Source: a virus | Virus record (IMG/VR): IMGVR_UViG_3300034022_000380 | Coordinates: 1-27,352 of that record | Length of the DNA stretch: 27,352 nucleotides | Strand: one strand, 5' to 3' | Part shown: in pieces, positions 17,175 to 22,047 of the stretch | Numbering within the stretch: the stretch's first letter is position 1 | Layout: each line of letters opens with the position of its first letter | Program-made: the position numbers and the translations under genes | Notes under the pieces: generated by a model | What the model saw: only the letters and a program-made list of their open reading frames with translations | Databases searched by the model: none | Told to the model about the DNA's origin: nothing

Positions 17175-18362
17175 ATGTCGTACATCGACCGTCAAGTAGA
17201 ACTCCGCAACCGTGCATGGGAAGAGGCTAAAGCCCTTCTTGATGTTGCGGAAGCAGAGAAGCGTGATTTAAGCGCAGAAGAAGAAGTTAAGTATGCTCGT
17301 ATTAACGAGGATCTCGGAAAACGTGCTGAAGTAATTGCAAGCCTTCGTGCTGATGAAGAGCGTGAATTGCGTTTGTCAGAAGCAACCCGTGGCATTGAAG
17401 ATCAGGTTCGACCTGTTGCAGGCAAATCTGTAAGCAATGATGCAGAGACAATCCGTAGCCTTGCTCGTGGAGAGATCCGTTCAGCAACATTTGAGAAGCG
17501 TGACGTAATCACGACTTCAACAGGCGCACCTGTACCAACGTCGTTCTACGATCAGATCGTTGAACACATGGTTCTTGTAGGCCCAATGTTGCAGACCTCT
17601 ACAGTTATCAATACTGCAGGTGGCGAAGCATTGCAGATCCCACGCACCAACGCATACAGCACAGCAGCACTCACTGCACAATCGTCAGCATTCGCTGAAT
17701 CAGATCCAACCTTCCAAGCCTTTACAACTTTGAACGCTTACAAGTACGGTTTCTTGATCCAAGTTTCTGCTGAAATGGTTGCCGATAGTGGCGTTGATCT
17801 TTTGGGCTTCCTTGCTCGTGAAGCAGGAATCGCAATCGGCGTTGCTGTAAACACGGCACTCACCACAGGTACTGACACCACAATGCCAAACGGTATTGCC
17901 GTTGCTGCAGGTTCAGGAGTAACAGGTTCAACAGCTGTCTCAGGTGCATTCACTGCAGACAACTTGATTGACCTTTCTTACAGCGTGAACTCAATGTACC
18001 GTCGTCAGCCCGGCACAGGTTGGATGTTGAACAACACCTCACTTGCTGCTGTACGCAAACTCAAAGACACCACCAATCAGTACCTCTTCCAACCATCGTT
18101 GCAGATGGGTCAGCCCGATATGCTTTTGGGCTTCCCAATCTTTGAGAACCCTGATGTGGTTTCTCCTGCAACTTCGGCTAAGAGCGTTCTGTTTGGTCAC
18201 ATGCCTTCGTACTACGTACGTCAGGCAGGCGGAATCAAGTTTGACCGTTCAGACGAATACGCATTTGCTAACGACCTGATCACCTTCCGTGCGTCAATCC
18301 GCATCGATGGCGATTTGCCACAAACGTCAGCAATCAAATACTTCGTTGGTGGGGCTTCCTAA
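17175..18362 (+). CDS. Major capsid protein, HK97 fold
   Basis: A 395-residue HK97-type capsid protein. Residues 1-80 are a charged coiled-coil delta (scaffold) domain (RAWEEAKALLDVAEAEKRDL and RAEVIASLRADEERELRL). The shell domain begins near residue 105-118 (KRDVITTSTGAPVPTSF), where the prohead protease would cut. Further signs are VEHMVLVGPMLQTSTVI, ALQIPRTN, KYGFLIQVSAEMVADS and the final FRASIRIDGDLP. AGGAGA lies just upstream. Codon usage appears stronger than in neighbours, as expected for the most abundant protein. Confidence 0.96.
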   Translation: MSYIDRQVELRNRAWEEAKALLDVAEAEKRDLSAEEEVKYARINEDLGKRAEVIASLRADEERELRLSEATRGIEDQVRPVAGKSVSNDAETIRSLARGEIRSATFEKRDVITTSTGAPVPTSFYDQIVEHMVLVGPMLQTSTVINTAGGEALQIPRTNAYSTAALTAQSSAFAESDPTFQAFTTLNAYKYGFLIQVSAEMVADSGVDLLGFLAREAGIAIGVAVNTALTTGTDTTMPNGIAVAAGSGVTGSTAVSGAFTADNLIDLSYSVNSMYRRQPGTGWMLNNTSLAAVRKLKDTTNQYLFQPSLQMGQPDMLLGFPIFENPDVVSPATSAKSVLFGHMPSYYVRQAGGIKFDRSDEYAFANDLITFRASIRIDGDLPQTSAIKYFVGGAS

Positions 18363-18377
18363 CTAACGAAAACAGAT

Positions 18378-18414
18378 GTGGGTGTACTAGACAGCGCAGG
18401 GCTAGTACACCCAC
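18378..18414 (+). terminator. Perfect 13-bp hairpin directly after the capsid gene
   Basis: GTGGGTGTACTAG (18378-18390) pairs without mismatch with CTAGTACACCCAC (18402-18414); the loop has 11 bases. No T-run follows. It could terminate most transcripts after the capsid gene or protect the capsid mRNA 3' end, lowering expression of the glycosyltransferase cassette. Confidence 0.7.
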
Positions 18415-18453
18415 TCTTGCGCACTCCTGCCAATTAACTGCGGAAAAGGGATT

Positions 18454-19698
18454 ATGGGTAATGCTCGTAAACATAAAAGGAACAATCGTGGAACTCCCGA
18501 TACCGGAAGCACAACAACTTCTGAGGTTGGGTTACGCACAGGAACTAGAAACAGCAACAATGGAAACGGGAGACAGATTCTCTTCTACTCCAATGCGCCG
18601 TGGTCAGCAACAGGCTACGGGCAACAAACAGCGCAACTCTGCACAAGGCTCAAAGAAGCAGGGAACAATGTTGCCATCCACGCCAACTACGGATTAGAAG
18701 GCGCAACTACCGTTTGGAACGGTTTCACGGTTTACCCTAAAGGCAACTCTGTTTATTCTGATGATGTAATGGTTGCCCATTATCTGCATTGGGCGCACAG
18801 GGAACCCGATATCAAACCTTTGCTGATGACTCTTTACGATGTGTGGGTTTTCAAATCGCAATCGTTTGATGCTGTAGAACAGATCGTTTCGTGGGTTCCT
18901 ATAGATCACACTCCTTGCCCCCCTGATGTGTTGGCGTGGTGCAATCGACCTAACGTGACCCCTGTAGCGATGAGCCTGTATGGGCAGAAGATGTTGCATC
19001 AGGCAGGTGTTGATGCTTTGTATGCCCCTCACGGTATTGAACGTGTGTTCAAACCTACGCCGGGTGGTAGGAAGATTTTGGAGATCCCTGAGGATCGGTT
19101 TGTTGTGATGATGACTGCAGCGAACAAAGGCGCAAGCCCACCACGTAAAGCATTTGCTGAGAACATTCTTGCATTTGGTGTTTTCTGTAAGAAGCATCCT
19201 GAAGCGTTGCTGTATTTGCATACAGAAAAACATGGGGTTCATGGCATCAATCTCATTGATTTATTGAAAGCGTGTGGGGTTCCTGAAGCCAACTATCAGT
19301 TCGTGGATCAGTACGCCTACCAAATGGGTATATCTCAGGAAGTGCTTGCATCGTTCTATACAGCTGCTGATGTGTTGTTGGCTGTGTCGATGGGTGAGGG
19401 TTTCGGTATTCCTGTTGTCGAGGCGCAAGCGTGTGGTACACGGGTGATTGTTTCTGATCAGACTGCTCAACCTGAACTTGTTGGGGATGGGTGGCTTGCC
19501 AAATCTCAACCGTTTTGGGATCACGCTCAGAGAGCGTTTTTCCATACACCTTTCACGGAATCTATTTTGGAATGCCTAGAGTCAGCGTGGGATGCACCCC
19601 GTACAACGTCGCAGGATGCGCTAAACCACGCAAAGCACTATCAGGCAGATGAAGTGTTTAGAAACCATTGGAAGCCGATTATGGGGCTTCTCAGTTGA
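18454..19698 (+). CDS. GT4-type glycosyltransferase with anomalous N-terminus
   Basis: A 414-residue GT-B enzyme. From residue 40 it looks normal: QILFYSNAPWSATGYGQQTA, then the C-terminal GT4 signature MGEGFGIPVVEAQACG (E-x7-E, near residue 314), and SDQTAQPELVG. Residues 1-39 are Asn/Thr/Gly/Arg-rich and unlike a glycosyltransferase start. This stretch is the shifted-frame reading of the small ORF at 18461. No other start codon exists in this frame before the enzyme core, so translation begins at ATG 18454, or arises by -1 frameshifting from 18461, or an indel is present. Substrate could be DNA-linked sugar or a virion protein. Confidence 0.8.
   Translation: MGNARKHKRNNRGTPDTGSTTTSEVGLRTGTRNSNNGNGRQILFYSNAPWSATGYGQQTAQLCTRLKEAGNNVAIHANYGLEGATTVWNGFTVYPKGNSVYSDDVMVAHYLHWAHREPDIKPLLMTLYDVWVFKSQSFDAVEQIVSWVPIDHTPCPPDVLAWCNRPNVTPVAMSLYGQKMLHQAGVDALYAPHGIERVFKPTPGGRKILEIPEDRFVVMMTAANKGASPPRKAFAENILAFGVFCKKHPEALLYLHTEKHGVHGINLIDLLKACGVPEANYQFVDQYAYQMGISQEVLASFYTAADVLLAVSMGEGFGIPVVEAQACGTRVIVSDQTAQPELVGDGWLAKSQPFWDHAQRAFFHTPFTESILECLESAWDAPRTTSQDALNHAKHYQADEVFRNHWKPIMGLLS
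18461..18697 (+). CDS. Small head-connector-like ORF overlapping the glycosyltransferase in another frame
   Basis: ATG 18461 has AAGGG ten bases upstream. The first 33 residues (LVNIKGTIVELPIPEAQQLL, then RLGYAQELETATM) read like a genuine small phage head or connector protein, and share a GTIVE and Gly-hydrophobic pattern with the small protein at 23045. From about residue 38 the sequence turns into low-complexity Ser/Gln/Lys (RRGQQQATGNKQ), the shadow of the overlapping glycosyltransferase, up to the stop at 18697. The N-terminal part is probably real; the tail may not be. Confidence 0.45.
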   Translation: MLVNIKGTIVELPIPEAQQLLRLGYAQELETATMETGDRFSSTPMRRGQQQATGNKQRNSAQGSKKQGTMLPSTPTTD

Positions 19699-20468
19699 GT
19701 GTGGCTTGGCTTACGCACCATCTCCCCGTTGAGGATACGGGTGGCGGTAGATGGTTGCCGGGCAAATATCGTGGTGGGGCAGAACTTTCAGATCAGGCCT
19801 ACAGGGATTGCGCACCCCCGTGGATAGATATTGAATTGATACCTGCTGCCGAATGGGAACGGGCGTTGGCTCATGAACGCATCGTTATCACAGGCACAGA
19901 CCTGCTAACAGAAGAAGCCATGTGCGTTCTTGCGGAACGGGAACCTATGGTTTTTATCCACCACGAACAAGACGAATCAGGTGGGCGTATGCAGTTGATC
20001 AACAACGCTGCCCCTTTTGTGTGCCATACCCCGGCGCATTTGGAAAGAGAACTGTTATGGACTCAACCCAAATGGACAGAGTTGGTGTTATCCCATTTCG
20101 ACACAAGTGAATGCCACAACCGTGAGAAGCGTGAGTTTGCGCTGTGGGCTGCACGTATGCATCCGTTGAAGGGTTTGAATCAGGCTAAGTTTTGGGCTGC
20201 ATCTGCAGGGTTTGATTTAGCGATTGCCTATCGTTCTAGTCGTGAAGAAGTATTGAACCTGATGAGTTTTGCTGAGGTGTTTGTTCATCTGCCGTTGAAC
20301 TTTGAAAGTGAAGGCAGAGCTGTGATGGAAGCCGTGCTTTCAGGTTGCAGGGTTGTCACAAACAAAAATGTTGGGTTGATCAGCGTTGATGGATGGGATG
20401 ACCCGTTTAGATTGAAAGATATGGTTGATGAAGCAGGCAACAAGTTTTGGGAAATGGTATGCCGGTAG
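19695..20468 (+). CDS. GT-B glycosyltransferase, short form
   Basis: A 257-residue enzyme starting at TTG 19695, which overlaps the previous stop by four bases; GTG 19701 is an alternative. The N-terminus has LTHHLPVEDTGGGRWLPG and KYRGGAELSD, the latter a sugar-transferase loop (GGAE). The central part includes VFIHHEQDESGG and FVCHTPAHLERELL. The donor domain ends FESEGRAVMEAVLSGCRVVT, like GT4 but with changed spacing. It is shorter than usual (350-400 residues). Translational coupling to the preceding glycosyltransferase suggests sequential sugar addition. Confidence 0.75.
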   Translation: MSVAWLTHHLPVEDTGGGRWLPGKYRGGAELSDQAYRDCAPPWIDIELIPAAEWERALAHERIVITGTDLLTEEAMCVLAEREPMVFIHHEQDESGGRMQLINNAAPFVCHTPAHLERELLWTQPKWTELVLSHFDTSECHNREKREFALWAARMHPLKGLNQAKFWAASAGFDLAIAYRSSREEVLNLMSFAEVFVHLPLNFESEGRAVMEAVLSGCRVVTNKNVGLISVDGWDDPFRLKDMVDEAGNKFWEMVCR

Positions 20469-21112
20469 CAATACTGATCCCGACATATCACCGGGCGCAC
20501 AAGATTGCTGAGGTGACGTTGAACGCTTTAGATTCCACAGATCATGCCAACGTCTATTTCATTGTTGAGCCTGATGACCATGAATCCATTACTGCTGTTG
20601 TGGGTACGGTTGGGGCAAACCTAATATTGAATCGACGCAAGAACAACTATGCCGGGGCTATCAATACGGGTGTGATTGATACTGATGAACCGTATGTGTT
20701 TGCAGGTGCAGATGATTTGAACTTTCATCAAGGATGGTTTGAGGCTGCCGTAGCATTAATGAAGAAACCGATTGAGGTTGTTGGCACTAACGATCTAGGC
20801 AACCCCTCTGTGATGCGTGGGGAACACGCCACCCATTATCTTGTTTCCCGTAACTATGCGACACAAGGCGTAGCAGACAGGGAAGGCATCATGCTGCATG
20901 AGGGCTATGACCATAATTGGACAGATACAGAGTTTATTGAAACCGCTAAATGGCGTGGGCGTTTTGCCCCCTGTTTAGAAAGCAAAGTGGAACACCTGCA
21001 CGTTGCGTGGGGTAAGGCTCGCATGGATGAGACATACACAAAAGGGTTCTCTAATGAGGGCATGGATGCACGTTTGTTTCAAGAAAGAAGTGAACTATGG
21101 ACTACGCAATAA
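20459..21112 (+). CDS. GT2-like (GT-A) glycosyltransferase
   Basis: A 217-residue enzyme from ATG 20459, overlapping the previous gene by ten bases. It begins PVAILIPTYHRAHKIAEVTL, a classic GT-A start; then NNYAGAINTGV, and FAGADDLNFHQGWFEAA with the Asp-Asp metal/nucleotide-sugar site. A later HEGYDHNWTDTEF segment matches the acceptor side of GT2 enzymes. It is small and has no membrane helices. Third of three coupled glycosyltransferase genes. Confidence 0.8.
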   Translation: MPVAILIPTYHRAHKIAEVTLNALDSTDHANVYFIVEPDDHESITAVVGTVGANLILNRRKNNYAGAINTGVIDTDEPYVFAGADDLNFHQGWFEAAVALMKKPIEVVGTNDLGNPSVMRGEHATHYLVSRNYATQGVADREGIMLHEGYDHNWTDTEFIETAKWRGRFAPCLESKVEHLHVAWGKARMDETYTKGFSNEGMDARLFQERSELWTTQ

Positions 21113-22047
21113 CAGGTGGTGCAGGGTTCATTGGAACCCATGTTGCCCAAAGACTCATTGAACAAGGGCATAGCGTTCATGTGTTTTCTAGACGGCCACC
21201 AACAGATCCTTTCCGCAAACAGGTGTGGGATGAATGCGACACACGCACCATCCTCGACCTCACGAAACAAGTTCCCGATTTCTCACAGATGCACCGGGTT
21301 ATTCATTTGGCTGCCGATATGGGTGGGGTGGGTTACTTCAGCAAAGAGGACTACTACCCTTACATCAACAACAGCAGGATTGATTTCAATGTGTTGCAGG
21401 CGATTGAGCGTTACAAGATTGATCGTTCCTTTGTGGCTTCATCTGCTTGTGCGTACCCTACGGAAGTGCAAACGATAGAAGGGTTTGCCCCCAAACTGCA
21501 TGAAGGATTGTTGGAAACAGGCACACCTGATTTGATGTATGGGCGTGAAAAACTGATGTTGATACGGTTGGCTGAACGTCATCCGCTAGATGTACGGGTT
21601 GGGATACTTCATACCGTTTACGGTATAGGGCAAGAATCTGTTGGGCAGCGCATGAAGTTCCCCACAGCTGCAGCATCTAAAGCGTTACAGGCAATCAAAA
21701 CGAAACGCATTGAGGTTTGGGGCAATGGCAAACAACTGCGTTCCTACCTGTATATCTCTGATGCGGTATCAAAGATTCTTGCTGTGCTAGAAGGCGAATA
21801 CGATGGGCCTGTGAACATTGGTGCTGAAGGTGCTGTGACTTGTGATCAGGTTGTGGAGTTGTGCGCCAAACTTGCAGGTGTCGATTCTTATGAGATTGTG
21901 CATAACCCGGCAGAACCGTCAGGTGTATTGGGCAGGGATTGTGACAATCGCAAGTTCAACAACCTTTATGGCGATCTGCAGGAGTTGGGGTATTCTGAAG
22001 GTTACGGACTCTTGATTGATTGGTTGAGGCAAAATGGCAGTTACTAA
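21097..22047 (+). CDS. NAD-dependent sugar epimerase, GDP-mannose-3,5-epimerase-like
   Basis: A 316-residue extended short-chain dehydrogenase/reductase. The NAD loop is GGAGFIG (7-13). The family-specific AADMGGVGY (72-80), SSACAYP with candidate catalytic Cys118, Y148-G-R-E-K152, GQRMKFPTAAASKA and WGNGKQLRSYLYI resemble GDP-mannose 3,5-epimerase rather than UDP-glucose 4-epimerase. Near the end, SGVLGRDCDNRK is also similar. It would make a GDP-sugar donor, such as GDP-L-galactose or L-gulose, for the glycosyltransferases. It overlaps the GT2-like gene by 16 bases and the connector by 14, so it is built into the operon. Confidence 0.83.
   Translation: MDYAITGGAGFIGTHVAQRLIEQGHSVHVFSRRPPTDPFRKQVWDECDTRTILDLTKQVPDFSQMHRVIHLAADMGGVGYFSKEDYYPYINNSRIDFNVLQAIERYKIDRSFVASSACAYPTEVQTIEGFAPKLHEGLLETGTPDLMYGREKLMLIRLAERHPLDVRVGILHTVYGIGQESVGQRMKFPTAAASKALQAIKTKRIEVWGNGKQLRSYLYISDAVSKILAVLEGEYDGPVNIGAEGAVTCDQVVELCAKLAGVDSYEIVHNPAEPSGVLGRDCDNRKFNNLYGDLQELGYSEGYGLLIDWLRQNGSY

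Follow-up and report, generated by a model that had tools for sequence, protein, structure and literature searches.

The 27,352-base virus record analyzed here (the window) carries an HK97-type head module. Downstream of the major capsid protein gene lie two overlapping genes (Table 1): a glycosyltransferase (GT) gene and, wholly within it in another frame, a small gene; the GT frame is −1 relative to the small frame. Both open reading frames are present as the preliminary description of this DNA had claimed. Three further carbohydrate genes follow in overlapping order at 19668-22047 (a second GT4-like gene, a GT2 gene and an NAD epimerase gene), and this sugar cassette sits inside the head module, between the capsid gene and a head-tail connector gene at 22034. 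A strong inverted repeat at 18376-18416 (MFE −25.2, z −2.9) separates the capsid gene from the nested pair, and Pontimonas phage phiPsal1 has a terminator-like hairpin and a T run at the equivalent position (z −5.7). Expression of both genes of the nested pair may lie below the level of the capsid gene.

Table 1. Coordinates of the features of the nested pair and its upstream neighbor in the window
Feature	Position	Strand	Remarks
HK97-type major capsid protein gene	17175..18362	+	Pfam Phage_capsid 5e-56; PHROG major head protein 3e-65; upstream neighbor of the nested pair
Shine-Dalgarno-like stretch GGAAAAGGG	18442..18450	+	From sequence and duplex scan; probably a single site common to both starts
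GT gene	18454..19698	+	414 aa; ATG start; GT-B fold, GT4-like
GT-frame start ATG	18454..18456	+	GT-frame start kept in 116/116 distinct 5' regions
GT N-terminal extension, codons 1-40	18454..18573	+	Missing from relatives without the small gene
Small nested gene	18461..18697	+	78 aa; ATG start; wholly within the GT gene, other frame
Small-frame start ATG	18461..18463	+	7 nt 3' of the GT start; ATG in 114/116, GTG in 2/116
Region I, ordered domain of the small protein, residues 1-38	18461..18574	+	Small-frame codon-position pattern
Region II, GT catalytic core	18575..18694	+	In the small frame a basic tail, predicted disordered

The glycosyltransferase and the small protein

The GT matches Glycos_transf_1 (5e-11, above the family cut-off) and PHROG 2170 (1.4e-33, spanning residues 41-398), and its nearest fold match is MshA (3c4q; 9.8e-16), with the GT-B fold beginning at residue 41. 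GT4-type enzymes have as a hallmark the EX7E motif, with two glutamates seven residues apart; E315 and E323 of the GT fit this motif and are invariant in 20 aligned sequences. Residues 1-37 have a pLDDT below 50, so that region I translated in the GT frame is predicted to yield a disordered extension. For the small protein, AlphaFold2 predicts a strand-strand-helix domain in residues 1-30 (block pLDDT 80-87), while the rest is predicted to be disordered. Thus, in the predicted structures, the ordered part of each protein coincides with the disordered part of the other.

The small open reading frame has no confident match to any library family. Comparisons with small head-tail connector and DUF7210-like proteins gave weak scores, i.e. 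a best PHROG score of 0.00072 for one relative and 0.094 for the window, 0.2 against DUF7210, and 0.045 as the best Foldseek score. A stand-alone version of the small gene was found neither by tblastn in the phage collection nor in IMG/VR profile scans with the first 40 and the first 35 residues (among the best 80 of 107 and the best 80 of 152 matches, respectively), nor by a small-family HMM applied to control loci (8989 stop-to-stop frames), where the top match (0.031) was the GT gene of phage TJE1 read out of frame. In a Demequina prophage, a related capsid gene is followed by a free-standing gene of 92 aa (L377:4262-4540), whose product has VELP and a basic tail; it is similar to the small gene by eye, but homology finds no support in the HMM.

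Relatives of the GT also exist without the small gene. All 39 phiPsal1-type relatives that were examined (80 were returned) have their own start at the enzyme core and lack the small-gene motif, and the GTs of phiPsal1 and Mae-JY09 likewise start at the core. Like the window, phiPsal1 has a homologous GT (39.9%) and a homologous capsid protein (46.0%) encoded in the same order; unlike in the window, its GT starts at the core and the small gene is missing. Because the relatives without the small gene begin at the core, we suggest that the GT extension of ∼40 residues is derived.

Conservation of both starts

The comparison with homologous phages that the preliminary description had called for revealed that 350 of 354 loci share this arrangement, with two open frames that each have their own start codon; the remaining four loci are cut off at the 5' end. 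Many of the 354 loci are the same contig recovered by several scans and, therefore, we collapsed them to 116 distinct 5' regions. Both starts are kept in all 116, at most 10 nt apart, and the dual arrangement is kept by all nine small-protein lineages (defined at 70% identity); these lineages are related by descent and, consequently, the counts are not independent. As a control, a start in the third frame occurs in the same stretch in just two of the 116 regions. What varies among the relatives is the identity of the start codons and their distance, which is +4, +7, +10 or −2 nt (Table 2). The scan with the GT returned 80 loci, and all 76 with an intact 5' end keep both frames, with the GT-frame start (63 GTG, 12 ATG and 1 TTG) 7 or 10 nt 5' of the small start; further lineages were added by the scans with the small protein. 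A separate record (contig L001) encodes a GT protein identical to that of the window. In one sub-lineage (L126, L145, L345 and L347), the small frame stops ∼7 codons early, giving a protein of 65 aa, and in L418 and L422, the GTGTG start pair is accompanied by an additional third-frame ATG two bases upstream.

Table 2. Start codon pairs and distance from the GT start to the small start in the 116 distinct 5' regions
GT start/small start	Distance (nt)	Regions
GTG/ATG	7	61
ATG/ATG	7	17
GTG/ATG	10	15
GTG/ATG	−2 (ATGTG)	10
ATG/ATG	4	5
GTG/ATG	4	5
TTG/ATG	7	1
GTG/GTG	4	1
GTG/GTG	−2 (GTGTG)	1

The preliminary description had considered three options, i.e. dual coding, a frameshift fusion and an assembly indel. 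Of these, dual coding is strongly supported by the maintenance of both frames, while the other two fared poorly. An assembly or sequencing indel that artificially joins two genes would account for nothing except the sharp switch of frame, and the sharing of the arrangement by independent relatives from many records refutes it; we regard its probability as practically nil.

The enzyme frame was also said to have no start other than ATG 18454. This holds in the window, where the frame is without ATG, GTG or TTG from 18454 to the FYSNAP motif, and likewise for 96 of 128 relatives, which have no internal GT start before the core; the other 32 have one.

Coding frame along the overlap

We analyzed substitutions in 121 codon-aligned sequences (of 128, with seven short ones dropped) using a tree built from the downstream part of the GT. 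In region I, the substitutions at GT codon positions 1/2/3 number 434/200/142, which correspond to small-frame positions 3/1/2, whereas in region II they number 117/55/303; in the downstream GT, the ratio is ∼4:2:14 per site. The switch from one frame to the other lies close to GT codon 41, at ∼18575. Based on this pattern by codon position, we conclude that region I encodes the small protein and region II onward encodes the enzyme. The transition agrees with the shift in coding signal that had been noticed near this position and with the PHROG match, which also begins at residue 41. Variable-site counts within lineages give the same switch in most lineages with enough variation; the exception is a small L103-like set, in which region II (5/0/4) is without the pattern.

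These data bear on two alternatives. According to the first, which the preliminary description had favored, a programmed −1 shift of the ribosome at around 18570-18580 yields a fusion of small protein and GT and, hence, a virion-tethered enzyme. Where the shift is predicted, the coding signal does move into the −1 frame; however, frameshifting needs neither the GT start, which is conserved in 116/116 regions, nor an open GT frame upstream, which is present in 121/121 sequences. In addition, a canonical X_XXY_YYZ heptamer is absent from 111 of the 121 sequences and in the remaining 10 is located either 99 nt upstream of the beginning of region II or 30 nt downstream of it, and the small frame continues open for ∼30 codons beyond. 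Altogether, we consider frameshifting improbable. The second alternative is a defunct small gene, whose remnants are simply translated as part of a GT that starts upstream; this would fit with the lack of a confident library family for the small open reading frame. It is extremely improbable, however, given that the first and second positions of the small frame are conserved while the third positions change freely, and that not a single small-frame stop occurs in region I across the 350 loci.

Constraint on the overlapping frame

A GT-frame stop occurs in region I in 0/121 sequences, although one arises in 95% of the trials on average (78% for the lowest sequence) when synonymous codons for the small gene are drawn at random. 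Similarly, ∼8% of the changes that are synonymous in the small frame would create a stop in the GT frame, i.e. ∼35 of the 434 would be expected and none was seen. The amino-acid-matched ratio for region I is 0.80, which points to a weak additional constraint on the GT frame past the avoidance of stops. Based on these patterns, the open frame of the GT extension appears to be maintained, while the identity of its residues probably matters little.

In region II, random recoding of the GT introduces a small-frame stop in 85% of the trials, compared with 4 of the 121 sequences observed. Because the third frame in region II is likewise stop-free in 120/121 sequences (with a stop expected in 40%), the open small frame alone is no proof of selection on the tail, and for this reason we used the amino-acid-matched test. 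By this test, the rate of change at the third GT codon positions of region II is 0.60 of the expectation, lower than in any control window (0.83 to 1.16), arguing that the small tail is constrained too. The slowdown derives mainly from two blocks, which the small frame translates as RYESS and as the tail K-x-R-K-S-x-G-S-x-K; the four-fold sites that are conserved in region II (7 codons) show no slowing. These substitution data argue for selection on both frames, more weakly so for the tail of the small protein.

A probable shared ribosome-binding site

The duplex scan placed the best anti-Shine-Dalgarno duplex upstream of both starts. This duplex is weak in the window, and in most relatives the Shine-Dalgarno sequence is AAGGAG or AGGAGG. 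In the commonest lineage, GAAGGAG ends 6 nt upstream of the GT start (GTG), and the distance from its end to the small start (ATG) is 13 or 16 nt; a Shine-Dalgarno spacing of 13-16 nt exceeds the textbook range. In the lineage with ATGTG, the matching sequence is AGGAGGA, and the distances from its end to the two starts are 2 and 4 nt.

In most relatives, this spacing favors the GT start, as would be expected if the GT were the sole product and the small open reading frame a by-product. We find this very improbable, because the evolution of region I follows the small frame rather than the GT frame, a small-frame start is present in 116/116 regions, and a folded domain is predicted for the small protein. 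Rather, we suggest that one Shine-Dalgarno site recruits the ribosome for either the GT start or the small start; the choice of start would set the frame and, therefore, the product. We infer that both proteins are made through such start competition.

Origin and implications of the nested pair

The explanation that we consider highly likely is that two genes were joined out of frame and have since been maintained as a nested pair with dual starts. In the order of events that we propose, a single out-of-frame joint would have connected a small gene located after the major capsid gene to a GT4-like gene; at this joint, the small gene would have lost its own end and now run on into the enzyme, while the enzyme would have lost its own start and now read through the small gene. 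This scenario can accommodate the earlier suggestion that a small gene was truncated in the joining. An ancestor with separate small and GT genes was not found in the searches made for it.

A literature search in a collection of PMC articles returned no report of this pair of small gene and GT. In the portions of PMC9841429 considered here, rnpA-rpmH of Thermus is described as the only bacterial ambiguous start known before the Escherichia coli cases, and ATGTG and GTGTG starts are reported as able to give two frames in E. coli, with the cellular expression of the alternative open reading frame of pqiA left open. As far as these portions describe it, the Thermus system shares with the phage pair a small gene (rpmH) fully nested out of frame at the 5' end of a longer gene for an enzyme subunit (rnpA), as well as one initiation region with starts a few nucleotides apart (PMC9841429). 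Unlike in Thermus, the phage genes lie beside a capsid gene, the partner is a GT, the start distance varies by lineage from −2 to +10 nt, and the system is known here from sequence. With the AUGUG and GUGUG starts of E. coli (pqiA, tamA and narQ; PMC9841429, same portions), the phages share ATGTG or GTGTG in 11 of the 116 regions, with both frames open; unlike in the E. coli cases described there, both frames carry family-wide conserved proteins in the phages. By analogy, the best reading is that the phage pair may work like Thermus rnpA-rpmH and the AUGUG/GUGUG starts of E. coli (PMC9841429).

Where a gene caller avoids long overlaps, one gene of such a pair would be expected to be lost. We also speculate that, throughout this environmental phage family, one ambiguous start permanently divides ribosomes between a GT and a capsid-region protein, and that the basic extension of the GT and the basic tail of the small protein, each born from the other frame, are now useful, e.g. 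in bringing the enzyme to the head; we hold this idea to be rather unlikely at present. Finally, the phages provide a natural series of more than 100 sequence variants (ATGTG, GTGTG, and start distances of 4, 7 and 10 nt). As evolution has maintained both frames throughout this series, the rules of start choice should be readable from nature and testable with reporters.
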